Source: Ornithinimicrobium ciconiae | GTDB taxonomy: Bacteria; Actinomycetota; Actinomycetes; Actinomycetales; Dermatophilaceae | Direction: 5' to 3' | DNA: 64,000 nucleotides | Assembly (NCBI RefSeq): GCF_007197575.1 | Contig: NZ_CP041616.1 | Coordinates: 124,001 to 188,000, forward strand | Part shown: positions 7,466-26,064 of the stretch, piece by piece | Layout of the letters: each line of letters starts with the position of its first letter | How positions within the stretch are numbered: the first letter of the stretch is position 1 | Position numbers and translations under genes: made by a program | Notes under the pieces: generated by a model | What the model saw: only the letters and a program-made list of their open reading frames with translations | Database searches by the model: none | What the model was told of the DNA's origin: nothing

Positions 7466-8644
7466 TCACCGGCCCCGCAGGCGGGCGGCCTGCCGGGCCA
7501 GGTGGTCGCGCTCGGCAAGGTTGCTGGCCTCACGTGCGGCGACGACATAGAGCTCGGCAGCCGTCGACGTCTCTCCCGCCCGCTCCCGCAGGTGCGCCTC
7601 GGCGGCCGTGCGCCGGGGCACCGACGCCGGCACCTGCTCCAGCGCCCGGAGTCCCGCGCGGGGTCCGTCAGCCTGCCCCACTGCGACGGCCCGGTTGAGG
7701 GCGACGACGGGACTGTCATTGAGGGCGGCCAGCTCGTCATACCACTCCACGATCTGCACCCAGTCGGTCTCGTCGGCGCTGCGTGCGTCGGCGTGCAGCG
7801 CGGCGATGGCTGCCTGGATCTGGAACTCCCCCAAGCGATCTCGCTCCAAGGCCTCCTGCAGGGTGTGGATCCCCTCACCGATCAGGTCGGTGTCCCACAG
7901 CCGCCGGTCCTGCTCGGCGAGGGCCACCAGCGTCCCCGCCGCAGTGAAGCGTGAGGCTCGGCGAGCGTGGTGCAGCAGCATCAGCGCGAGGAGCCCGGCG
8001 ATCTCCGGCTCGGGCCGGCGCCCACCAGCCTGCGCCACCAGCTCGCGGGTGAGCCGGATCGCCTCGGCGGCCAGGTCGACCGCACCGCTGTAGCCCTCGT
8101 TGAAGATCAGATAGAGCACCCGCAGCACCCGTCCGAGGTCACCCGGACCGGACAGCCCCTCGGCCGCGACGGTGCGTTTGGCACGGCTGATGCGCTGCGC
8201 CATCGTGGCCTCCGGCACCAGGTAGGCCTCGGCGATCTGCCGTGTGGTCAGCCCACCCACGGCCCGCAGGGTCAGCGCGACCGCCGAGGAAGGGGTCAGT
8301 GCCGGGTGGCAGCACAGGAACAGCAGCTGCAGGGTGTCGTCGCGCTCCTCGGAGGGGCCCGGTGCTGGCTCCTCGAGCTCGGCCCGCTCCCGACGGTGCC
8401 GGGCGGTCTCGGAGCGGTGCGCGTCGACACACTTGCGCCAGGCGACGGTGACCAGCCAGGCGAACGGGTCCTTCGGCATACCCTCCGGCCAGTGGGCCAA
8501 CGCCTCGATGACGGCCTCCTGCACGGCGTCCTCGGCCGTCGCGAACTCTGCGCCGCGGCGGACGAGGACCCCGAGCACCTGCGGTCCGAGGTGCCGCAGC
8601 AGGTCGGGTGTGCCGTCCTCACCAGGGCTGTCGGCGGGTGCCAC
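7466..8644 (-). CDS. ECF42-type RNA polymerase sigma factor with C-terminal helical extension
   Basis: 392 residues. Sigma region 2 (AEDAVQEAVIEALAHWPEG, DPFAWLVTVAWRKCVD) and region 4 (LTTRQIAEAYLVPEATMAQRISRAK) are followed by a long TPR-like extension (VLYLIFNEGYSG, LLALMLLHHARR, SPVVALNRAVAVGQ) that defines ECF42. These sigmas lack an anti-sigma and are partnered by YCII/DGPF proteins, one of which lies directly upstream. The GTG start is 9 bp after that gene's stop, with GAGG upstream. Target promoters are unknown. A second ECF42 lies at 24.8 kb. Confidence 0.9.
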   Translation of the reverse strand: MAPADSPGEDGTPDLLRHLGPQVLGVLVRRGAEFATAEDAVQEAVIEALAHWPEGMPKDPFAWLVTVAWRKCVDAHRSETARHRRERAELEEPAPGPSEERDDTLQLLFLCCHPALTPSSAVALTLRAVGGLTTRQIAEAYLVPEATMAQRISRAKRTVAAEGLSGPGDLGRVLRVLYLIFNEGYSGAVDLAAEAIRLTRELVAQAGGRRPEPEIAGLLALMLLHHARRASRFTAAGTLVALAEQDRRLWDTDLIGEGIHTLQEALERDRLGEFQIQAAIAALHADARSADETDWVQIVEWYDELAALNDSPVVALNRAVAVGQADGPRAGLRALEQVPASVPRRTAAEAHLRERAGETSTAAELYVVAAREASNLAERDHLARQAARLRGR

Positions 8645-10928: not shown

Positions 10929-10997
10929 ATGAGTGACGACGGGCATTTGCCGTGCCCCCTGACGGTCCGCAACCGGCAGGGGGTTGACAACCCGTGA
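10929..10997 (+). CDS. Putative 22-residue leader peptide, coupled to the CNNM/CorC gene
   Basis: An ATG at 10929, well placed after a GAGGAG ribosome site (10914-10919), opens a 22-codon frame reading MSDDGHLPCPLTVRNRQG then VDNP. Its TGA stop (10995-10997) overlaps the GTG start of the CNNM gene as GTGA. The main gene has no good ribosome site of its own. Translation of the leader is therefore probably needed to start the transporter, and could sense a metal or stalling signal. Confidence 0.5.
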   Translation: MSDDGHLPCPLTVRNRQGVDNP

Positions 10998-12478
10998 GCG
11001 CCATCCTCTCGCTGCTCATCGGCCTGGTCGTGATCCTGGCGATCACGGCGGCCACCGCCTTCTTCGTCGCCCAGGAGTTCGCCTACATGACGGTGGACCG
11101 CTCCCGGCTGGGAGCGCGAGCCGCCTCCGGTGACGCGGTCGCCGAGCGCACCCTGTCCATCACCAAGCGCACCTCCTTCATGCTCTCCGGCGCCCAGCTC
11201 GGCATCACCGTGACCGGGCTGCTCGTGGGGTATGTCGCCGAGCCCCTCGTCGGGCAGGCCGCCGGTGAGATGTTTGGCTGGGCCGGTGTGCCCCAGGGCA
11301 CCGGCATCCTGATCGGCACCATCTTGGCCCTGGCGCTGTCGACCATCGTGCAGATGGTCTTTGGCGAGTTGGTGCCCAAGAACCTCGCGATCGCCCGGCC
11401 CGAGCCGGTGGCCCGGGCGCTGTCCCTGCCAACCACCATCTACCTGCGACTGACCGGGTGGTTGGTGTGGATCTTCGACCAGTCCTCCAACCTGCTGCTC
11501 AAGGCCCTGGGCATCGAGCCGGTGCACGACGTCGAGCACTCGGCCTCTCCCCGGGACCTCGAGCACATCGTGGCCGAGTCCCGTCGCAGCGGGGACCTGC
11601 CGGACGAGCTCTCCACCCTCCTCGACCGCATCATCGACTTCCCCGACCGCGACGTCGAGCACGCGATGATCCCGCGCTCCCGGGTCGGGGTCCTGCAGGC
11701 CACGGACACCCTGGGGCAGATCCGCGAGCTGATGGCCCGGGAGCACTCCCGCTATCCGGTGCTCGACGACGACGAGCAGATCCTCGGCGTGGTCCACCTC
11801 ACGGACGTGCTCGTCTCCACCGGACCCGACGACACCCCCGCCACCGAGCTGGTCCGCCCGGCGACGATCGTCCCCACGGTCATGCTCCTCCCGGACGCCC
11901 TCGAGCAGCTCAACGCCTCCGGCAACCAGCTGGCCTGTGTCGTCGACGAGTATGGCGGCCTGGCCGGCGTGGTGACCCTCGAGGACCTCGCCGAGGAGTT
12001 CGTCGGAGAGATCACCGACGAGCACGACCCGGAGCCCCCGCCGGAGACGCTGGAGGAGAGCGACGGCACGTGGGTGCTGGACGGGGACGTCCACGTCGAC
12101 GAGATCGAGCGGGCCATCGGGCACACGCTCCCTGACGGCGATTACGAGACCGCTTCCGGTTTGCTCATCGCCACCCACGGCGCCCTCCCGGACGAGGGAG
12201 ATGTCATCGTGGTGTCGATCGAGCCCGCCAGCGTCCTGGCGAGTGAGGACGAGCAGCTCGAGCTGCACGCGGAGGTCCTCGAGGTCGACCGGCACGTGCC
12301 CTCGCTGCTCAGGCTGACCCTCGCCACCAGTTCACCGCCCGGCACCGAGCCTGGGGCCACGGCCGACCCGGAGGCCACGACCGAGCCGGAGGCCACGACC
12401 GATCCGGAGGCCACGGCCGAGCCTGGGGTCACGACTGGTCCGGAAGCATCCCAGGACGAGCAGGAGGAGCAGCGATGA
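10994..12478 (+). CDS. CNNM/CorC-family membrane protein with CBS pair
   Basis: 494 residues. The N-terminal CNNM (DUF21) domain has about three to four spans (ILSLLIGLVVILAITAATAFFVAQEF, AQLGITVTGLLVGYVAEPLV). A CBS pair (VEHAMIPRSRVGVL, GNQLACVVDEYGGLAGVVTLEDL) and a CorC/HlyC domain (DGDVHVDEIERAIGHTLPDGDYETASGLL) follow. Bacterial members act in Mg2+/Co2+ efflux. The last 45 residues are a repeated acidic Pro-Glu-Ala-Thr tail. GTG start overlapping the leader peptide; the stop overlaps the next gene (ATGA). Confidence 0.88.
   Translation: MSAILSLLIGLVVILAITAATAFFVAQEFAYMTVDRSRLGARAASGDAVAERTLSITKRTSFMLSGAQLGITVTGLLVGYVAEPLVGQAAGEMFGWAGVPQGTGILIGTILALALSTIVQMVFGELVPKNLAIARPEPVARALSLPTTIYLRLTGWLVWIFDQSSNLLLKALGIEPVHDVEHSASPRDLEHIVAESRRSGDLPDELSTLLDRIIDFPDRDVEHAMIPRSRVGVLQATDTLGQIRELMAREHSRYPVLDDDEQILGVVHLTDVLVSTGPDDTPATELVRPATIVPTVMLLPDALEQLNASGNQLACVVDEYGGLAGVVTLEDLAEEFVGEITDEHDPEPPPETLEESDGTWVLDGDVHVDEIERAIGHTLPDGDYETASGLLIATHGALPDEGDVIVVSIEPASVLASEDEQLELHAEVLEVDRHVPSLLRLTLATSSPPGTEPGATADPEATTEPEATTDPEATAEPGVTTGPEASQDEQEEQR
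12355..12440 (+). repeat. 18-bp coding repeats (PEATT-type tail)
   Basis: Imperfect 18-bp repeats built on GAGGCCACG and CCGGAG encode the tail of the first CNNM protein (DPEATTEPEATTDPEATAEP). Copy number is likely to vary between strains. Confidence 0.7.
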
Positions 12479-13500
12479 GCAGTCCGTGGATCGTCGCCGT
12501 GGTGACCGTCGCCATCATCGTGCTGAGCGCCTTCTTCGTCGCCGTCGAGTTCTCCCTGATCGCCGCCAAGCGTCACCGCCTCGAGGACGCCGCGAGCACC
12601 AGCCGGTCGGCGCGCGCCGCGCTGCGCAGCTCGACCGAGCTCACCCTGCTGCTCGCTGGCTCCCAGCTGGGCATCACCGTGTGCACGCTGGCCCTCGGTG
12701 CCATCACCAAGCCCGCGGTGCACCACTGGTTGACGCCGCTCTTCGAGGCCTGGGGCCTGGCCTTCTGGGTGGCTGACGTCGCCGGTTTTGTCCTCGCCCT
12801 GATCATCGTCACCTTCCTCCACCTCGTCGTGGGGGAGATGGCCCCCAAGTCGTGGGCGATCGCGCACCCGGAGCGGTCGGCGACCCTGCTGGCCCTGCCG
12901 ATGCGGGTCTTCATGACACTCACCCGGCCCCTGCTGCGGGCGTTGAACGGCACCGCCAACTGGATCCTGGAGCGCTTCGGCGTCGAGGCGGTCAACGAGG
13001 TCGCCACCGGTCAGAACCCGGACGCCCTGCGGCACCTGGTCGAGCACTCGACCAATGTCGGCGCCCTCGACGCCAGGCTCTCGTCGCAGTTCAGCGGCGC
13101 GCTCAACCTCGAGACCCTGCGGGTCCGCGACCTCCTCGACGGAGCGCCCGTCACCCAGGTGGAGCCGGACGCGACCGTCGCCGAGGTGCGGGCCGCCACC
13201 CACCGCAGCGGCCACCTGCGGATCCTGGTGGGCACGGGCCCGGCCACCGACGGCCTGATCCACGTGCGGGACACCCTGCTCCACGAGGACGCCACCCCGG
13301 TGACCGACCTGGTCCGTCCCGTCTTCACGCTGGACCCGGAGACCAAGGTCTATGAGGCGCTGGCGCGGATGCGGGAGACCGCCACGCACCTGGCCGTGGT
13401 CGCCGACCAGGGCCGGACCGTGGGCGTGGTCACCCTCTCGGACGTCCTGCGGCTGCTGTTTCCGCAGGACAGCAGGGACCTGTCGACGAAGCCGGCCTAG
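12475..13500 (+). CDS. Second CNNM-family membrane protein with CBS domains
   Basis: 341 residues, a paralogue of the gene before it. The CNNM membrane domain (IIVLSAFFVAVEFSLIAAKRHRLED, AGSQLGITVCTLALGAITKP, HLVVGEMAPKSWAIAHPE) is followed by a CBS pair ending VVADQGRTVGVVTLSDVLRLL. It lacks the C-terminal CorC domain. The four-base ATGA overlap means both proteins are made from one message, perhaps as a heteromer for Mg2+/Co2+ efflux. A strong hairpin follows the stop. Confidence 0.87.
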   Translation: MSSPWIVAVVTVAIIVLSAFFVAVEFSLIAAKRHRLEDAASTSRSARAALRSSTELTLLLAGSQLGITVCTLALGAITKPAVHHWLTPLFEAWGLAFWVADVAGFVLALIIVTFLHLVVGEMAPKSWAIAHPERSATLLALPMRVFMTLTRPLLRALNGTANWILERFGVEAVNEVATGQNPDALRHLVEHSTNVGALDARLSSQFSGALNLETLRVRDLLDGAPVTQVEPDATVAEVRAATHRSGHLRILVGTGPATDGLIHVRDTLLHEDATPVTDLVRPVFTLDPETKVYEALARMRETATHLAVVADQGRTVGVVTLSDVLRLLFPQDSRDLSTKPA

Positions 13501-13511
13501 TCCCGAGGGGT

Positions 13512-13544
13512 GGCACCCGGCCCGGACGATGCGGGCCGGGTGCC
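13512..13544 (+). terminator. Strong hairpin terminator after the CNNM operon
   Basis: GGCACCCGGCCCG (13512-13524) and its exact complement (13532-13544) form a perfect 13-bp stem with a seven-base loop, 11 bp after the stop codon. There is no U-tract, as is common for actinobacterial terminators. Confidence 0.8.
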
Positions 13545-13584: not shown

Positions 13585-15048
13585 ATGCCAGAGGACGACC
13601 GGCCTGGGAACCCCATCCCCCAGCTCAGCAGGAGCCGTCACATCCGAGCTGCCGCCACCTCGGTCACCGCCTTTGTCGGTGCGTGCACCCAGGGGCCGGT
13701 GGGCAGGCCCGTGCGCGTGGCGACGGCAGCCGACTATCACGACACCTTCGGGCCCAGCCTGGACGCCGCCCGGCCGCTCGGGCACGCCGTGGACCTGTTC
13801 TTTGCCAACGGTGGGGACAACGCGATCATCGTCCGGGCACCGGGAGCGTCAGCGGAGGAGCTGGTGCCGCCGGACGGGACGGAGCATGCCGAGGCCCTCG
13901 ACGGCTCCGGTGTCACGGTGCTCGTCATCCCGGGCCTGACCACTGGACACACTGCCCAGGTGCGGCGTGCGCTGCGCCGCTGCGCGTCATACTCCGCCGT
14001 GCTGCTGCTCGACCCACCGGCCGGGGACTGGCGGGCCAGCACCGAACAGGACCTCACCAGCATCCCAGAGCACCGCGACCGCGCCGCGGTCTATCACCCG
14101 TGGGTGCTGGTCGGCGGGCGGGCCGTGCCACCGACCGGGGCCGTGGCCGGGGTCATCGCGCGCACGGACGCGGCCCGCGGGGTGTGGAAGACGCCCGCCG
14201 GCAGTGACGCCGTGCTGCACGGCATCGAGGGCCTGGCGACTCCGGCCGACCACCAGCTGGCCGAGTCTCTCACCCTGGCTGGGGTCAACCCGTTGCGCGA
14301 GTCACCGGGTCGGGGACCGGTCGTCTGGGGAGCCCGGGTCCTCTCCGCCGCCCAGGCCGGTGGTGCGGCGCAGCGCTACCTCCCGGTCCGCAGGCTGGCC
14401 GATCACGTGCGTCGGTCGATCAGCACGGACCTGGGCTGGGTGGTCTTTGAGCAGGACGAGCCCGACCTGTGGCAGCGGGTCCGCGTCATGACCGAGGAGT
14501 TCCTCATGGCCCTGTTCGAGCAGGGGGCACTGGTCGGGAGCAGACCCCGGGACGCCTTCTTCGTGCAGGTGGGGCTGGGGCAGACGATGACTGCCGAGGA
14601 CGTCGCCGCCGGGCTGCTGCGCCTGGAGGTCGGGATCTCCCCGCTGCGTCCCGCCGAGTTCGAGGTGCTGCGGATCGTGGTCCCCACGGCCTCGGCCCGG
14701 GATGCCGCGAGCCTGCTGATCGAGCGGGCCGACGGGCGTGAGGACGGGGAGCAGTGGGCGGAGAGCCACGAGCGTCTGCCCGGCGGCGCCGGCATCTCGC
14801 TCATCCTGGAGTCCACCACCCGGCCTGGCGTCGGCCCGCGGCTGCACCAGCACCCCTATCCCGAGACGTTCGTCATCCGGCGCGGCTCGGCCGTCTTCAC
14901 CGTGGGCGCCGCGACGGTGCCGGGGCGGGCGGGCCAGATCCTGGTGGTTCCGGCGGAGACCGCCCACACCTTCGTGACCGGTCCGGACGGCTACGAGGGC
15001 CTGCACCTGCACGAGAGCGACACCTTTGAGACCGAGTGGCTCGAATAG
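13585..15048 (+). CDS. Orphan contractile-tail-sheath-like protein fused to a metal-binding cupin
   Basis: 487 residues in one open frame. Residues about 15-365 look like a contractile phage-tail/injection-system sheath: SVTAFVGACTQGPVG (26-40), FFANGGDNAIIVRA (72-85), ARTDAARGVWKTPAGSDA (192-209), WGARVLS (248-254), WVVFEQDEPDLWQRV, ALVGSRPRDAFFVQVG (315-330), GISPLRPAEFEVLRI (350-364). Residues about 397-487 form a cupin whose motif 1 is G-X3-HQH-X3-E-X6-G (H421, H423, E427), with motif 2 ending in H461, so all four metal ligands are present. No tube, baseplate or spike gene lies nearby. ATG 13585 chosen; ribosome site weak. The function of the fusion is unknown. Confidence 0.75.
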   Translation: MPEDDRPGNPIPQLSRSRHIRAAATSVTAFVGACTQGPVGRPVRVATAADYHDTFGPSLDAARPLGHAVDLFFANGGDNAIIVRAPGASAEELVPPDGTEHAEALDGSGVTVLVIPGLTTGHTAQVRRALRRCASYSAVLLLDPPAGDWRASTEQDLTSIPEHRDRAAVYHPWVLVGGRAVPPTGAVAGVIARTDAARGVWKTPAGSDAVLHGIEGLATPADHQLAESLTLAGVNPLRESPGRGPVVWGARVLSAAQAGGAAQRYLPVRRLADHVRRSISTDLGWVVFEQDEPDLWQRVRVMTEEFLMALFEQGALVGSRPRDAFFVQVGLGQTMTAEDVAAGLLRLEVGISPLRPAEFEVLRIVVPTASARDAASLLIERADGREDGEQWAESHERLPGGAGISLILESTTRPGVGPRLHQHPYPETFVIRRGSAVFTVGAATVPGRAGQILVVPAETAHTFVTGPDGYEGLHLHESDTFETEWLE

Positions 15049-15104
15049 CACGGAGCCACGGTCTACAGTGCCCGCATGTTTCGCACGTCCCCGCAAGAGC
15101 CGGT

Positions 15105-16109
15105 ATGACGACCGGGCCGACCTACGCCGACCTCACCGACGAGGAGCAGGCCGAGGCGCTGCGCCCGGTCGCCGTCGCCGCCGCGGCCTCCTTCGGTCTG
15201 CCGGTGGACCGCCTCGACGTGCACCTGCACTCCTACAACACGACCTACGCACTGGACACCGACACCGGTGAACGGTTCGCGCTGCGGATCAACACCAGCT
15301 CCACCAGCCCGCGGGAGGAGATCGCCACCCAGCAGGCCTGGCAGCTGGCCATCGCACAGCAGACCCCCGTGCGGGTGCCGACACCACTGCGCACCACAGA
15401 CGGCCAGTGGTGCGCCGCGGTGCAGTCGCAGGTCCTGGGTCGAGAGCTGCTGGTGACCTGCGCCGACTGGCTGCCGGGTCCCGACGTGGGTGAGCCGACC
15501 CCGCAGGTCGCGCACGCCCTCGGTGCGGCGATGGCACACCTGCACCTGCAAGCCAGGTCCTGGTCGCTGCCGGTCGACGGCATCCTGCCGGTCTTTGACT
15601 CGCCGCTCTTCGGAGCACCCGACCGCCTCGCCACGACGGCTGTGGACGCGCCGACGCGCCAGGTGCTCGACGAGGCGATGGCCCTGGCGACCACGGCCTT
15701 CGCCCGGGTGTATGCCGACGCTCCCGTCCACGCACTGCACGCCGACCTGCACGGAGGCAACCTCAAGTGGCACCAGGACCGGCTCGCGATCTTCGACTTC
15801 GACGACTGCGGGCTGGGGGTGCCGGCGCTGGACCTGGCGATCGCCACGTTCTATCTGCGCGGCGGTGCCGATGACGCAGAGCAGGCGATGCGCGATGGTT
15901 ATGCCTCGGTCACCCCGCTGCCGGAGATCGACCCCCGTGACTTCGAACCCCTCATCGCCGCGCGGCAACTGCTGCTGCTCAACGACATCGTGGCGAGCAC
16001 GACCGCGCAGTTCCGTGAGATGGCCGCGACCTACCTGCCGACCTCAACGGACCGGCTGCGGCACTGGTTGACGACCGGGCACTTCACGCGGGTGCTGCCC
16101 GACGACTGA
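15105..16109 (+). CDS. Phosphotransferase of the APH/choline kinase superfamily
   Basis: 334 residues with a protein-kinase-like fold. The Brenner catalytic loop is HADLHGGN (H212, D214, N219) and the metal-binding aspartate lies in IFDFDDCG near 229-233. The fold start NTTYALDTDTGERFALRI carries the ATP-lysine region, although Arg stands where Lys is usual. This resembles the SrkA/homoserine kinase II-like branch rather than drug-resistance APHs. It starts at ATG 15105, 56 bp after the sheath-cupin gene. Confidence 0.8.
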   Translation: MTTGPTYADLTDEEQAEALRPVAVAAAASFGLPVDRLDVHLHSYNTTYALDTDTGERFALRINTSSTSPREEIATQQAWQLAIAQQTPVRVPTPLRTTDGQWCAAVQSQVLGRELLVTCADWLPGPDVGEPTPQVAHALGAAMAHLHLQARSWSLPVDGILPVFDSPLFGAPDRLATTAVDAPTRQVLDEAMALATTAFARVYADAPVHALHADLHGGNLKWHQDRLAIFDFDDCGLGVPALDLAIATFYLRGGADDAEQAMRDGYASVTPLPEIDPRDFEPLIAARQLLLLNDIVASTTAQFREMAATYLPTSTDRLRHWLTTGHFTRVLPDD

Positions 16110-17087: not shown

Positions 17088-17441
17088 ATGACACTCACCG
17101 TAGGCATGATCACGACCGACACCACCGATGCGGAGTCACTGGCTTCCTGGTGGGCAGAGCAGACCGGCGCCGAGGTCGCCGAGACCAACGACGGCTGGTT
17201 TGCCATCGTCCGGGGCGGCTCGTTGCCGGTCTGGCTGGCCTTCCAGAAGGTCGAGACCGTCACGGCTGGCAAGAACCGGCTGCACCTGGATCTGACGACC
17301 GACACCGACCTGGACGCCGAAGTCGAGCGACTCCTGGCTGCTGGCGCCACGCTGGTGGCGCGGCGTGGGGACGAGAGCTTCCGCTGGGTCACCCTCGCCG
17401 ATCCGCAGGGCAACGAGTTCTGCGTCTCCGGCAAGCACTGA
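17088..17441 (+). CDS. VOC (glyoxalase/bleomycin-resistance fold) protein
   Basis: 117 residues covering one vicinal-oxygen-chelate domain in two beta-alpha-beta-beta-beta halves: MITTDTTDAESLASWWAEQTG, then RLHLDLTTDTDLDAEVERLLAAGA, ending VTLADPQGNEFCV. The last motif is the usual end of the actinobacterial glyoxalase-like family. Substrate not predictable. Confidence 0.85.
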   Translation: MTLTVGMITTDTTDAESLASWWAEQTGAEVAETNDGWFAIVRGGSLPVWLAFQKVETVTAGKNRLHLDLTTDTDLDAEVERLLAAGATLVARRGDESFRWVTLADPQGNEFCVSGKH

Positions 17442-18363: not shown

Positions 18364-19778
18364 ACGGCCCGATCCTCGTCGAGCGTCCCCCGTGCCCGGG
18401 CCGGCACCAGCCAGACCAGCAGCAGCCCGACCACCACGAGCACCATTCCCCAGGCCGGGGCGAAGGTGAGCCCGGCCAGTGAGACCCCTCCCCGCTGGAG
18501 CGGATGGGCGAACCCGGCCGAGGCGACCATCGTCATGCCGGCGGCGACCAGGACGGTCGCCGGGACCGCCAGGGTGGTGGGTGGCACGGCCGCCCGGCTG
18601 GGCAGCCATTCGACGAACGTCAGCAGCCGCACCAGCACCGCTGTGATGATCCCGGCGACCAGCAACCACAGGAGCTTGTGCGCCCACCACAGTCCGGTGC
18701 CCGGCTCGGGCAGTGGCAGTCCCACCCCGAGCAGCACCGCGGTGGCGACGACGAATCCGGTGAGGTGCCACAGGAAGATGGTCATCACCGACCGGTTCAC
18801 CACCACGACGGCGAGCCACGTCCACTCCCCCTCCAACCACCGGCTCAGGGCGGGCCGAGCCCACATCAGCAGACAGACCTGCAGGGCACCAGCCAGGATC
18901 ACGCAGACGCTCGGCGGCAGCATGTTGGACATCTGCTCCCCTGGCACCGTGATCATGCTCACCGGATAGGGCCCGATCGCGGTGAGCAGCACCAGCAGTC
19001 CGACGGCCGCCGCCGCACCGAGCGGCCAGACCCACCGGGGTCGTCGGGTGAGCCGACCGTCGGCATACAGCATCCCGAGCTCCTGGGCGAAGCCGAAGAC
19101 GATGAGGTAGTTGACGAATCCCAGGCCGGCCCAGGAGGTGTTCTGGGTGCGGTCCAGCAGCACAGCGAGCAGCGGCAGCACGCTGACCAGCAGCCACGGG
19201 AGCCGACGGTGCACCGCCACCTGCAGCGGTGCGATCAGGGCCAGCACCAGGTAGACCGCGAGGAACCACAGGATCATCGCGGCGTTCTGCCCGGCCGCGT
19301 CGACCAGGCCCTCGTCCACGCCCGCGGCGATGAGCACCGTGCAGAGCACCAGCCACACCCCGATCAGGACCAGGGTCGGCCGGGTGACGCGCTCGACGCG
19401 CCCGACCAGAAAGGCGCGGACCCGTCCCGGTCGGCGCAGCCCCAGGGCGTTGGTGAAGCCGGCTGCGAAGAAGAACAGCGGCATCACCTGCAGCAGCCAG
19501 GTCAGCGGGTGCAGCTGCGGGGTGAACGCCAGGATGTTGTCGACCCGTATGCCGGACCACCCCTCACCCGTGGTCGATCCGCCGTGCAGGGCAGCCATCG
19601 TCCAGTGCCCCAGCACCACGACCACGATGCTCACGGCCCGGACCAGGTCGATGAAACGATCCCGCTGCCCGGTCCCCGCGCCGTCTCTTGTCCCCGCGCC
19701 GCCCCCTCTCCCCGCCCCGCCTCGGGCTCCCTGCAGCCCAAGGTGCCCCGGCCGGCCCCGGGGGCCCTCGCTCTCCAT
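18348..19778 (-). CDS. Membrane acyltransferase (acyltransferase 3 family)
   Basis: 476 residues with about ten to eleven spans. The start FIDLVRAVSIVVVVLGHWTMAAL carries the conserved catalytic-site His of acyltransferase-3 proteins, and VMPLFFFAAGFTNALGLRR is the second family motif. Such enzymes O-acetylate sugars, lipids or antibiotics at the membrane. Gly-rich basic N-terminus of about 35 residues. Start ATG 19776-19778 (a GTG two codons earlier is possible). It is divergent from two ATP-grasp genes with only 35 bp between, so shared control and a joint pathway are plausible. Confidence 0.82.
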   Translation of the reverse strand: MESEGPRGRPGHLGLQGARGGAGRGGGAGTRDGAGTGQRDRFIDLVRAVSIVVVVLGHWTMAALHGGSTTGEGWSGIRVDNILAFTPQLHPLTWLLQVMPLFFFAAGFTNALGLRRPGRVRAFLVGRVERVTRPTLVLIGVWLVLCTVLIAAGVDEGLVDAAGQNAAMILWFLAVYLVLALIAPLQVAVHRRLPWLLVSVLPLLAVLLDRTQNTSWAGLGFVNYLIVFGFAQELGMLYADGRLTRRPRWVWPLGAAAAVGLLVLLTAIGPYPVSMITVPGEQMSNMLPPSVCVILAGALQVCLLMWARPALSRWLEGEWTWLAVVVVNRSVMTIFLWHLTGFVVATAVLLGVGLPLPEPGTGLWWAHKLLWLLVAGIITAVLVRLLTFVEWLPSRAAVPPTTLAVPATVLVAAGMTMVASAGFAHPLQRGGVSLAGLTFAPAWGMVLVVVGLLLVWLVPARARGTLDEDRAVRVPR

Positions 19779-19813
19779 GGGCACAGTGTGCCAGCGGCCA
19801 CTACAGTTCCGAC

Positions 19814-21043
19814 ATGGTCAACGCTGCCTTTGTCGCGCCCTTCCTGCTGGAGGCGACCAGCCACTTTGTCCTGGCCGCCGCCCGAGTTCCTGGAGTGCAA
19901 CTCGCGGTCATCACCACCACACCGCGCGAGCAGCTCTCCCCCGAGTTGCGCGAGGCACTGGCGGGCCACTGGCAGGTCAGTGACGGGCTCGACCCGCAAG
20001 AGATCGTGGACGCTGTCCGCGACCTGCAGCACCAGCTGGGTCCGATCGAGCGGCTGATCGGCATCCTCGAGCAGCTCCAGGTCCCCCTGGCTCAGGCCCG
20101 CGAGGCACTGGGCATCCCCGGGCTGAGCGTCGGGTCGTCCCGCAACGTGCGGGACAAGTCCCGGATGAAAGAGGTGCTCACCGCGGCCGGGTTGCCGTGC
20201 GCCCGCCACCAGCTGGTGCACCAGACCCAGCAGGCGACCGCGTTCCGAGACCTGGTCGGCTTCCCGATCGTCGCCAAGCCGCCGGACGGTGCCGGGGCCA
20301 AGGCCACCTTCCGGTTGGACACGGCGCACGACTTCGACTCATGGCTGGCCATGGCGCAGCGGGACCCCTCGGAGGTGTGGCTGCTCGAGGAGTTCCTCAC
20401 CGGCCGTGAGCACACCTTCGACTCGGTGACCCTGAACGGGCAGACCCTGTGGTCCTCGATCGCGGACTATGCGCCACCACCGCTGGAGGTGCTGCGCAAC
20501 CCGTGGATGCAGTGGACCGTGCTGTTGCCGCACGAGATCGGTGGGGCGGAGTATGCCGAGATCCACCGGGTGGGACCGGCCGCACTGCAGGCGCTCGGGG
20601 TGGACACCGCCTTCTCCCACATGGAGTGGTTCGCCCGCCCGGACGGCTCGGTGGCCATCTCCGAGGTGGGCGCCCGGCCACCTGGTGCGCAACTGGCCGG
20701 CATGATCGGGCTGAGCCACGACGTCGACTTCTTCACCCTGTGGGCACGCCTGGTGCTGCTGGGCCAGTTCGACCGCCCGGACCGGGTCTACGCCGCCGGT
20801 ACGGCCTACCTGCGCGGGATGGGGCGTGGCCGGGTCCGCGCCGTCCACGGAATCGAGGAGGTCCAGGCCGCGCTCGGAGACCTGGTGGTCGCCGCCCGGC
20901 TCCCGTCGCGTGGTCAGGCGGCCTCGCCGTCATACGAGGGAGAGGGGTTCATCACGGTGCGGCACTGGGACACCCACGTGGTGCAGGAGGCGTTGGACCG
21001 CATCGTCAGCACGGTCCGCATCGAGCTCGTCGAGTCGGAGTAG
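19814..21043 (+). CDS. ATP-grasp domain protein (first of a tandem pair)
   Basis: 409 residues. A Rossmann-like preATP-grasp domain is followed by the ATP-grasp fold: NVRDKSRMKEVLTAAGLPCARHQLV, then FPIVAKPPDGAGAKATF (ATP lysine), EEFLTGREHTFDS, and the Mg-binding segment ISEVGARPPGAQ. These are carbon-nitrogen ligases that join a carboxylate to an amine through an acylphosphate. This subgroup resembles L-amino-acid/carnosine-synthase-type ligases; the substrate is unknown. Starts at ATG 19814. Confidence 0.82.
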   Translation: MVNAAFVAPFLLEATSHFVLAAARVPGVQLAVITTTPREQLSPELREALAGHWQVSDGLDPQEIVDAVRDLQHQLGPIERLIGILEQLQVPLAQAREALGIPGLSVGSSRNVRDKSRMKEVLTAAGLPCARHQLVHQTQQATAFRDLVGFPIVAKPPDGAGAKATFRLDTAHDFDSWLAMAQRDPSEVWLLEEFLTGREHTFDSVTLNGQTLWSSIADYAPPPLEVLRNPWMQWTVLLPHEIGGAEYAEIHRVGPAALQALGVDTAFSHMEWFARPDGSVAISEVGARPPGAQLAGMIGLSHDVDFFTLWARLVLLGQFDRPDRVYAAGTAYLRGMGRGRVRAVHGIEEVQAALGDLVVAARLPSRGQAASPSYEGEGFITVRHWDTHVVQEALDRIVSTVRIELVESE

Positions 21044-21055
21044 AAGGGCGTGACC

Positions 21056-22267
21056 ATGAACATCGTGATGCTGTCCCCGGGCTTCCCCTTCGAGCAGGCC
21101 TACTTCACCCGTGCGCTGGCCCAGACCGGGGCCCGCGTCATCGGGGTCGGCGACCAACCCGCCGCCATGCTGCCGCCGGAGGCCCAGCAGCACCTGGCCC
21201 ACTATGAGCACGTCTCCCTGCGCGACGAGGAGGCCGTGCTCGCCGCGCTGCGTGGCCTGTCCCGGCATGTCTCGATCGACCGGGTCGAGTGCCTCTGGGA
21301 GCCCTATGTCGAGCTCGCCGCCCGCATCCGCGAGCACCTGGAGCTGCCGGGAATGACACTGGAGCAGGCCACCTGGTTCCGGGACAAGGAGGCGATGAAG
21401 CAGGTGCTCGACGCCGCCGGGATCCGCACGCCGCGGCACGCCTCCGCCCGCGCCGGTGCGGAGGTGTGGGAGGCGGCCGAGCGCATCGGCTTCCCGCTGA
21501 TCGTCAAGCCGATCGCCGGCGCTGGCTCGGCTGACACCTATCGCGTGGACTCCCCCGAGCAGCTCGCCGAGGTGCAGGCGATGATCCGGCACGTGCCGCT
21601 GCTCAGCGTCGAGGAGTTCATCGACGGCCAGGAGTTCACCTATGACACCGTGTGCGGCGACGGTGACGTGCTCTTTGAGAACGTCAGCTGGTATCTGCCA
21701 CGCCCCCTGGAGCAGCGCAGCCATGAGTGGATCAGCCCGGTCACGCTGTCTCTGCGCGACACGAGTGAGCCCCGACTGGCCGGTGGCCTGGCGATGGGCC
21801 GCGCGGTCCTGAAGGCGCTGAACTTCACCGACGGATTCACGCACATGGAGTGGTATCTGAAGGCGGACGGCGAGGCCGTCTTCGGCGAGATCGGGGCGCG
21901 CCCGCCCGGCGCCCGCACCGTCGACGTCATGAACTACGCCACGGACAACGACCTGTTCCGCACCTGGGCCCAGGCGATCACCACGGGGACCGCGCCGGCG
22001 GTGACGCACAAGTTCAACGCGGCCAGCATGTTCAAACGGGCTCAGGGCACGGGCCGGATCAGCCGCGTCGAGGGGTTGGACCGGCTGATGCGTGAGCTCG
22101 GTGAGCATGTCTGCGTCCTCGATCTGCTGCCGGTCGGGGCTCCGCGCCGTGACTGGCGGGCCACCCTGCTCTCCGACGGCATGATCATCTATCGTCACCC
22201 CGACCTCGAGGAGGTCCTGCGCATCGGCGACCGATTTGCTCGCGAGCTGCAGCTGTATGCCGAGTGA
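21056..22267 (+). CDS. ATP-grasp domain protein (second of a tandem pair)
   Basis: 403 residues, paralogous to the gene 12 bp upstream and surely cotranscribed. FRDKEAMKQVLDAAGIRTPRH begins the ATP-grasp fold, FPLIVKPIAGAGSADTYRV carries the ATP lysine, EEFIDGQEFTYDTV the beta-hairpin, and FGEIGARPPGARTVDVMNY the metal site. AGAAGGG seven bases before ATG 21056 decides the start over GTG 21050. The pair may carry out two successive ligations or act as a heteromer. Confidence 0.83.
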   Translation: MNIVMLSPGFPFEQAYFTRALAQTGARVIGVGDQPAAMLPPEAQQHLAHYEHVSLRDEEAVLAALRGLSRHVSIDRVECLWEPYVELAARIREHLELPGMTLEQATWFRDKEAMKQVLDAAGIRTPRHASARAGAEVWEAAERIGFPLIVKPIAGAGSADTYRVDSPEQLAEVQAMIRHVPLLSVEEFIDGQEFTYDTVCGDGDVLFENVSWYLPRPLEQRSHEWISPVTLSLRDTSEPRLAGGLAMGRAVLKALNFTDGFTHMEWYLKADGEAVFGEIGARPPGARTVDVMNYATDNDLFRTWAQAITTGTAPAVTHKFNAASMFKRAQGTGRISRVEGLDRLMRELGEHVCVLDLLPVGAPRRDWRATLLSDGMIIYRHPDLEEVLRIGDRFARELQLYAE

Positions 22268-24439: not shown

Positions 24440-24826
24440 ATGCCCAGATATCTGCTGTCCGTCTTCGGATCCGCCGAGCGCACCGATTTCGGCAACTACT
24501 CCTCCAAGGAGGAGATGCTGCAGGCGTTTGCTGACACCGGCGTCTTCAACGAGAAGCTGGAACGCGATGGCCACCTCGTCTTCGCCGACGGCCTCGAGCC
24601 GGCGAGCATCGCCACCACTGTCGACGGCCAGGGCGAGCAGCCGGTGTTCACCGACGGGCCCTACCTGGAGACGAAGGAGCACCTCGGCGGCTTCTGGGTC
24701 ATCGAGGCAGCAGATCTGGACGAGGCACTTGCCCTCGCCGCAGAGGGGTCCAAGGCATGTCGCGGCACGGTCGAGGTCCGGCCGTTCCAATCTGCCGAGT
24801 CCTTCGCGACGCTGTTGGAGTCGTGA
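24440..24826 (+). CDS. YCII/DGPF-domain protein 2 of the second ECF42 operon
   Basis: 128 residues: RYLLSVFGSAERTDF, VFTDGPYLETKEHLGGFWVIEA (DGPY in place of DGPF). Close to the first YCII protein in layout. Start ATG 24440; a GTG at 24431 overlapping the previous stop is possible. Its own stop overlaps the sigma start (GTGA at 24823-24826), so all three genes are translationally linked. Confidence 0.87.
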   Translation: MPRYLLSVFGSAERTDFGNYSSKEEMLQAFADTGVFNEKLERDGHLVFADGLEPASIATTVDGQGEQPVFTDGPYLETKEHLGGFWVIEAADLDEALALAAEGSKACRGTVEVRPFQSAESFATLLES

Positions 24827-26064
24827 CCGACCGGGAACTCGAGGAGGCCATCACCCGTGTCCACCGTCAGGAGTGGGCGCGGGTGGTCGCCGGCCTGACC
24901 CGACGCTTCGGTGACCTTGACATCGCCGAGGATGCCGCTGCCGAGGCATTTTCCCTGGCGGTGGAGCGCTGGGCGCGGGACGGCATACCTCCTCATCCCG
25001 GCGGGTGGCTGACGACCACGGCCACGCGGAAGGCGATCGACCGGATCCGCCGCGAGTCCCGACGGGACGCCAAGCACCAGGAGGCCCTCATGGTGACGGA
25101 CGACAGCCGCCCCGATCCGGTCGGCCCGATCGAGGACGACCGCCTCCGTCTGATCTTCACCTGCTGCCACCCGGCACTGGCCATGGAGGCGCGGGTCGCC
25201 CTCACGCTGCGGCTGCTGGGCGGCCTGACCGTCGCCCAGATCGCCCATGCCTTTCTCGTCCGGGAGACCGCTCTGGCACAACGCATCACGCGCGCCAAGG
25301 CGAAGATCAAGACGGCTCACATCCCCTACCGCGTGCCGCTCGAGCAGGACCTGCGGGTCCGCCTCGCCGGCGTGCTGGCCGTGGTCTATCTCATCTTCAA
25401 CGAGGGCTATCTCGCCAGCCAGGGTGACGATCCTCTGCGCGTCGAACTGACCGATGAGGCGATCCGGCTCGGCCGGTTGCTGCACGAACTCCTGCCCGAC
25501 GAGGGCGAGGTGACCGGACTCCTGGCGCTCATGCTGCTCACCGACGCGCGCCGGGCCGCGCGTGTGTCGCGCACCGGTGAGCTGGTGACTCTGGACGAGC
25601 AGGACCGTGGGGCGTGGGATCGTGCCCTGATCGCCGAGGGAGCATCGCTGGTGGCCGAGGCCGGGTCAGCCGTCGCCGGAGCGGGATCCGTGGGTCGCTT
25701 TCAGCTGCTCGCCGCGATCAACTCCGTGCACACCGCCGCCCCATCTGTCCGGGACACCGACTGGTCCCGCATCGTCCGGTTGTATGACGGGCTGGTCACC
25801 ATCGATCCCTCGCCGATCGTGCGTCTCAATCGTGCCGTCGCCGTCGCCGAGGTGGATGGACCGGCGGTCGGGTTCGCCGAGGTCGAGCGGTTGGCGGAAC
25901 CTCTCAGCGGCTATCACGCCCTTCACGCGACGCGAGCCGACCTGCTGCGGCGGCTGGGTCGCAGCGCTGAGGCGGGCGCGGCCTATGACCGGGCGATCGC
26001 CCTGGCGGGAAACGCTGCTGAGCGTGCCTATCTCAGCCGTCGGCGCGGCCAGCTCGGAGGCTGA
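24823..26064 (+). CDS. ECF42-type RNA polymerase sigma factor (second copy)
   Basis: 413 residues. Region 2 (LDIAEDAAAEAFSLAVERWARDG, WLTTTATRKAIDRIRRES), region 4 (LTVAQIAHAFLVRETALAQRITRAKAKIK) and the ECF42 TPR-like extension (VVYLIFNEGYLAS, RFQLLAAINSVHT, PIVRLNRAVAVAEV). GTG start overlapping the stop of the second YCII gene. The 3' end overlaps the converging P-type ATPase gene by 32 bp. It differs clearly from the ECF42 at 7.5-8.6 kb, so the two are not recent duplicates. Confidence 0.9.
   Translation: MTDRELEEAITRVHRQEWARVVAGLTRRFGDLDIAEDAAAEAFSLAVERWARDGIPPHPGGWLTTTATRKAIDRIRRESRRDAKHQEALMVTDDSRPDPVGPIEDDRLRLIFTCCHPALAMEARVALTLRLLGGLTVAQIAHAFLVRETALAQRITRAKAKIKTAHIPYRVPLEQDLRVRLAGVLAVVYLIFNEGYLASQGDDPLRVELTDEAIRLGRLLHELLPDEGEVTGLLALMLLTDARRAARVSRTGELVTLDEQDRGAWDRALIAEGASLVAEAGSAVAGAGSVGRFQLLAAINSVHTAAPSVRDTDWSRIVRLYDGLVTIDPSPIVRLNRAVAVAEVDGPAVGFAEVERLAEPLSGYHALHATRADLLRRLGRSAEAGAAYDRAIALAGNAAERAYLSRRRGQLGG

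Follow-up and report, generated by a model that had tools for sequence, protein, structure and literature searches.

A sheath–cupin fusion gene and its neighbourhood

The window, i.e., the whole 64,000-nucleotide stretch of Ornithinimicrobium ciconiae DNA that was analysed, carried on the plus strand (13585..15048) a single frame encoding a 487-aa sheath–cupin fusion protein (P0001), which was identified by profile and structure comparison. Contractile sheaths occur in phage tails, tailocins, T6SS and eCIS. P0001 matched the contractile sheath fold (Phage_sheath_1) in both sequence profile and fold, making its membership of this fold family clear; the structure-comparison rows spanned the sheath half for both the window model and the model of P0028. 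The N-terminal arm (residues 1–20; 13585..13644) was eroded, with PGNPIPQ in place of the PGVYVEE of eCIS-like sheaths, and was modelled with low confidence. The compact sheath body (residues 21–367; 13645..14685), delimited by profile and model, was complete to the C-terminal strand, which follows the PAEF motif at residues 360–367 in the predicted model, and the V conserved after PAEF in eCIS-like sheaths was replaced by E. A complete small cupin, also delimited by profile and model, occupied residues 376–487 (14710..15045) and carried the ligands H421, H423, E427 and H461. The sequence-only reading had described this frame as a sheath body joined to a C-terminal cupin with an intact metal site, and the match of residues 15–365 to sheath profiles and structures, together with the four intact ligands, bore out this description. 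Scans of P0001 against NCBIfam (E 0.01) and PADLOC (E 0.001) returned no match, and the literature searched, judged on titles and abstract openings, described no sheath–cupin or lone sheath–AAA protein.

A survey of related genomes recovered the same fusion in G023 and G007, with 63%–64% identity over residues 1–487. Database copies of the other full-length fusions were P0003 and P0004 (the latter from Ornithinimicrobium cavernae), and a 188-aa protein (P0256) comprised the sheath end and cupin of a fourth fusion. Because the fusion recurs in four different genomes or contigs, a sequencing artefact joining two genes was ruled out.

In the cupin half, the Cupin_2 profile scored 31.6 bits against a cut-off of 27.2, and the strands of a cupin barrel were predicted at residues 405–476. 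All four metal ligands were retained in 4/4 fusions. A search at E up to 1e-5 returned 401 relatives, identifying the cupin as a widespread small protein; among the 120 relatives listed, most were 110–123 aa long, the organism-named ones were actinobacterial, identity of the stand-alone proteins to the fused cupin was 61%–76%, and 115 carried the ligand pattern. Whereas these stand-alone actinobacterial Cupin_2 proteins (about 110–123 aa) are free, no stand-alone twin of the fused cupin was matched in the three fusion genomes (G000, the genome of the window, G007 and G023). A search by sequence found no solved close relative, the best PDB match having an E value of 0.021. A quick 129-row tree set the window cupin apart from the other fused cupins, but the separate origin that this would imply was not retained, as a 62-row tree counting P0256 among the fused cupins united all four (support 72/44, 68% of bootstrap trees). 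A single origin of the fused cupins is thus favoured, though not proven.

The tube, baseplate, spike and ATPase companions expected of a working eCIS sheath were not found near P0001: no contractile-system gene was recognised by Pfam among 32 scanned frames between 146 and 34294, a selection of the frames in that part of the window. Within this scope, the orphan status proposed for the sheath was upheld. Upstream of the fusion were two CNNM/CBS transporter-like genes (10994..13500, plus strand), for which the fetched parts of the other two fusion loci showed no counterpart. The gap that separates the CNNM gene from the fusion contained a perfect 13-bp inverted repeat (13512..13544, unstranded). 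With RNA parameters, 48 bases around it were computed to fold into a strong hairpin (−41.6 kcal/mol) that resembles a terminator but has no T run, and the fusion gene may therefore start its own transcript. Downstream were an APH-family phosphotransferase frame (15036..16109, plus strand), for which an ATG at 15105 appeared by eye a likelier start than the GTG at 15036, and a gene for a glyoxalase-like protein of 117 aa (17088..17441, plus strand). An APH relative was found near the fusion in both other fusion genomes and the glyoxalase gene at most about 6 kb from the fusion in 3/3, so that both genes were common to the three full-length fusion loci within a few kb. Elsewhere in the window, two adjoining ATP-grasp-like proteins (weak matches) were encoded beside a PhzF-like protein and an acyltransferase at 19688–22267, possibly a small biosynthetic cluster, and two ECF sigma factors with DUF6596 were encoded at 7466–8644 (beside a YCII protein) and 24757–26064.

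Across the clade of lone sheaths to which P0001 belongs, no operon partner was common to all 16 loci compared (L035–L050, one being a split copy), and a clade-wide partner was rejected. OsmC and MarR genes adjoined the sheath in five of these loci (L038, L041, L042, L044 and L046), and the remaining neighbours tracked local synteny. A subtilase was also rejected as a partner, its GTSMA-type motif occurring beside the lone sheath in L047–L049 only. In these three related genomes, the subtilase gene was divergent to the lone sheath; the L047 protein had S8, PA, Fn3 and CWB2 domains and was secreted and cell-wall-binding, and those of L048 and L049 were assigned by motif and homology.

Distribution and evolutionary rate of lone sheaths

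An intact lone sheath was present in 16 of the 31 genus genomes; in addition, the copy in G003 was split, and G016 retained a remnant (27% identity, five stops) whose kinship to the clade is unsure. A gp19-type tube gene (PF06841) was recognised in eight genomes (G000, G001, G012, G017, G018, G023, G028 and G030). Lone sheath and tube occurred together in five genomes, and three of the eight tube genomes had no lone sheath; presence of the two was not associated (Fisher p 0.69, 31 genomes). No tube gene was recognised in 11 of the 16 intact carriers, including the cupin-fusion genome G007, which argues that the lone sheath is more than an eCIS part encoded at a distance. Eight carriers that were at least 98% complete (G002, G004, G007, G011, G014, G022, G027 and G029) matched PF04984 nowhere else and gave no tube match; G015 had a second sheath and no tube match, and two carriers were incomplete (G005, 84%; G019, 75%). 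In 14 control genomes, PF04984 matched three and PF06841 none; thus, the reach of the tube profile is known from the genus alone, and divergent tubes may be missed. Sheath-region matches in 66 further genomes, with eCIS and lone sheaths pooled, were 33%–46% identical.

The genome of the window encoded a second sheath at 3,940,473 with the normal PGVYVEE arm, and the ten frames scanned around it included a gp19-type tube, a Pvc16-type cap, a WHD-AAA ATPase, an HSP70-like protein, a spike-type protein and a baseplate-J protein. This eCIS locus (G000:C1, about 3926900–3951800; L033 and L034) contained more than one tube gene. Compared with eCIS sheaths such as those of the Streptomyces coelicolor CIS, PVC (Pvc2) and AFP (Afp2), P0001 differed in having no recognised contractile partner nearby, an eroded N-terminal arm and a C-terminal cupin. 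In the case of the clade, the distribution contradicts membership of a working contractile system; for P0001, such membership is unsupported, and the protein probably stands alone and is not a regular eCIS part.

Evolutionary rates differed strongly between the two kinds of sheath. Between G000 and G023, the eCIS sheath was 93% identical (dN 0.036, dN/dS 0.09), whereas the lone sheath was 62% identical (dN 0.327, dN/dS 0.44), an approximately ninefold higher dN in this one genome pair. The dN/dS values were 0.045–0.10 in six eCIS sheath pairs and 0.31–0.44 in six lone-sheath pairs, the rate set excluding L047–L049, which were also left out of the alignment for want of the start landmark. Of the neighbouring genes in the G000/G023 pair, the glyoxalase gave 87% identity and a dN/dS of 0.17 and APH 62% and 0.54; since APH (dN/dS 0.38–0.54) evolved as fast as the lone sheath, speed alone is no special mark of the sheath within the locus. 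Within the fusion, dN was 0.086–0.17 for the cupin and 0.26–0.33 for the sheath; relative to the window protein, the fused cupin (0.15–0.17) was more constrained than its carrier sheath (0.27–0.33). The fusion frame was intact in three diverged species (sheath dS 0.71–0.75), and dN/dS was < 1 in every pair computed. The higher dN/dS of lone sheaths therefore indicates a weaker or different constraint, still below neutrality and with intact frames; values of 0.36–0.44 could represent weak constraint.

The lone-sheath clade, its C-terminal modules and its arm

A quick 112-row sheath tree, from which eight rows without the PAEF landmark were left out, placed the cupin group as one branch (SH-aLRT 97) within a 38-row clade (100). 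The cupin group had four rows, P0002 being the window's own protein, and hence represented three species. Classified by motif, the 38 rows comprised 29 with an AAA piece, five with the sheath only and four with a cupin. The named members belonged mainly to Ornithinimicrobium and Serinicoccus, with one Ornithinicoccus MAG and one Tessaracoccus. The Tessaracoccus member (P0019, from Tessaracoccus sp. G1721) lies outside the genus and may represent a transfer or a mislabelled genome. The lone sheaths with an AAA+ fragment share the sheath-body clade with P0001 (47%–59% identity for matches covering ~70% of the query) but end in a P-loop-less, eCIS-type ATPase piece where P0001 ends in a cupin.

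This C-terminal AAA piece spanned the pore loop (SRYIGETEKN) to Walker B (DEADALFG), without the P-loop, and corresponded in P0005 to positions 27–96 of the 131 of the Pfam AAA profile. The piece in P0019 shared 55% identity with the own-genome eCIS ATPase across 77 residues. In P0028, taken as a representative, it was predicted as beta-alpha-beta-alpha-beta, with block pLDDT values of 81–92 over most of its length and 49–61 in a loop and the tail. Special conservation of the fragment was ruled out, as the mean pairwise identity in 10 proteins (45 pairs) was about equal for the AAA piece (71%) and the sheath (67%). The shortest form, L045 (G019), had a piece of about 45 residues joined straight after PAEF and retained the N-terminal arm. 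Pvc15, a characterised eCIS ATPase, is reported to have Lys-Tyr in its pore loop and DEAD as its Walker B motif (PMC11495950), to which the motifs of the clade AAA piece probably correspond.

Many database proteins, most of them metagenomic and spread over several branches in the sheath tree, were also sheath–AAA fusions. These proteins (P0116 and others) resemble P0001 in joining a sheath and an extra domain in a single chain, but mostly retain the N-terminal arm motif, have a larger AAA part and lie on other branches. The P-loop pattern was present in 23 of 46 sheath-first fusions; these 46 were picked by the pore motif, so that its retention is built in, and the count includes misfiled rows (P0161 and P0165 are probably AAA-first, and the match of P0127 is spurious). 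P0116 and P0122–P0171 were mostly from metagenomes or MAGs, with one Candidatus Bathyarchaeum (P0171); about half were without the P-loop pattern, and a few carried the AAA part first. Among 80 sheath-match loci, most matches covered the sheath part only. In Salegentibacter tibetensis (L082:7234–12166), a 727-aa sheath–AAA fusion, the sole PF04984 match of the genome, lay beside a divergent subtilase, with farther neighbours that looked mobile-element-like by eye; in Achromobacter (L075), the only match was a sheath whose following AAA piece lies in a different frame.

The arm motif was present in 61 of 71 eCIS-like sheaths (P0045–P0115, labelled by the absent C-terminal AAA part alone and including some fragments), 43 of 48 sheath–AAA fusions, 1 of 39 non-cupin clade sequences (P0005–P0043, a few of which, such as P0035 and P0039, have no AAA piece) and two of three cupin fusions. 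For genus loci, the frame upstream of the sheath was also inspected for the arm. Some motif-negative sequences (P0015) were cut at the N-terminus, and P0019, P0035 and P0039 retained a shortened Y(I/V)EE arm. P0003 and P0004 kept a PGTY arm, and the window protein retained PG but not the rest. Of 102 columns conserved in 30 eCIS-like sheaths (labelled in the same way), 68 were kept at ≥ 80% in 27 lone sheaths and 10 at ≤ 20%, the latter including the PGVY arm and the position that follows PAEF; the VFEPND stretch was degraded in lone sheaths. All three cupin fusions kept 69 of the 102 columns.

These features bear on the proposal of the sequence-only reading that the protein may build a different particle or filament, for instance a cupin-decorated filament or ring of the sheath type, formed without a tube as an ordered metalloprotein array. 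The complete sheath body with its C-terminal strand, the PGTY arms in two of the three full-length fusions and the retention of most core columns are consistent with such a polymer. However, sheath subunits of AlgoCIS are interwoven by a conserved handshake, according to its description (PMC8894135), so the loss of the arm, which is eroded in the window protein and whose motif only one of the 39 other clade sequences retains, speaks against polymerisation of the usual sheath kind. The sheath half also evolved faster than the cupin, unlike the slow eCIS sheaths. A polymer therefore appears unlikely; the lone sheath, the fusion, the metal site and the neighbourhood stood as first described, whereas the particle or filament has so far found no support.

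A freed sheath fold as the favoured explanation

Considering fold, ancestry, distribution and rate, P0001 might be best explained as an eCIS-type sheath that left its contractile machine and was put to a new use as a free-standing protein. In most of the clade, the C-terminal position is held by a piece of an eCIS-type AAA+ ATPase, and in the lineage of this species a small actinobacterial cupin, found at the same position, may have replaced it. The protein would be a soluble, non-contractile monomer or small oligomer, whose sheath body may bind a partner or itself and whose cupin may bind a divalent metal as well as a small ligand, with an enzymatic or sensory role at that site. We assign this reading as a whole, a freed sheath with an exchangeable C-terminal module, a probability of about 0.5. 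More tentatively, the clade could be a tube-free, fast-evolving lone-sheath family carrying exchangeable modules (AAA+ ATPase, P-loop-less half-AAA or cupin), perhaps as conflict sensors or decoys; such re-use would be comparable in kind to that of the phage capsid fold in encapsulins.

A specific form of conflict, in which P0001 acts as a decoy or poison subunit, either capping or blocking contractile tails (of phages or of rival injection systems) or sensing components of these, is quite improbable. The fast-evolving sheath half, whose frame is open in 16 genus genomes, the arm loss that might be expected of a chain-terminating subunit and the exchangeable C-terminal modules hint at it weakly and indirectly. 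Conversely, PADLOC gave no match for P0001, the IetA matches of its relatives stemmed from the AAA part alone, the sheath was nearer to eCIS than to phage sheaths, and no defence gene recurred beside the sheath among those neighbours that were identified.

A decaying relic without function would fit the split copy in G003, the five-stop remnant in G016 (of unsure kinship), the high dN/dS (0.31–0.44) and the patchy presence, but is difficult to reconcile with intact frames in 16 genus genomes and three diverged fusion species, dN/dS < 1 in all computed pairs and intact metal ligands in all four fusions, and we consider it still less probable. Least probable is an extra sheath or cap subunit for an eCIS encoded elsewhere in the genome: the genome of the window has such a locus, and characterised eCIS can use several sheath paralogues (Afp2–4, Pvc2–4), but most intact carriers, including G007, have no recognised tube gene, the two genes are not associated, and the constraint is very different from that on eCIS sheaths.

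The freed-sheath reading, if true, would mean that a clade present in about half of the genus genomes, mostly tube-less and with the arm motif gone, uses the sheath fold without contraction. It could account for annotations of “phage tail sheath family protein” outside any cluster and would call for caution in surveys that infer an injection system from a sheath gene. Furthermore, the recurrent joining of a sheath to an eCIS-type AAA+ domain hints at a direct sheath–ATPase contact in real eCIS.
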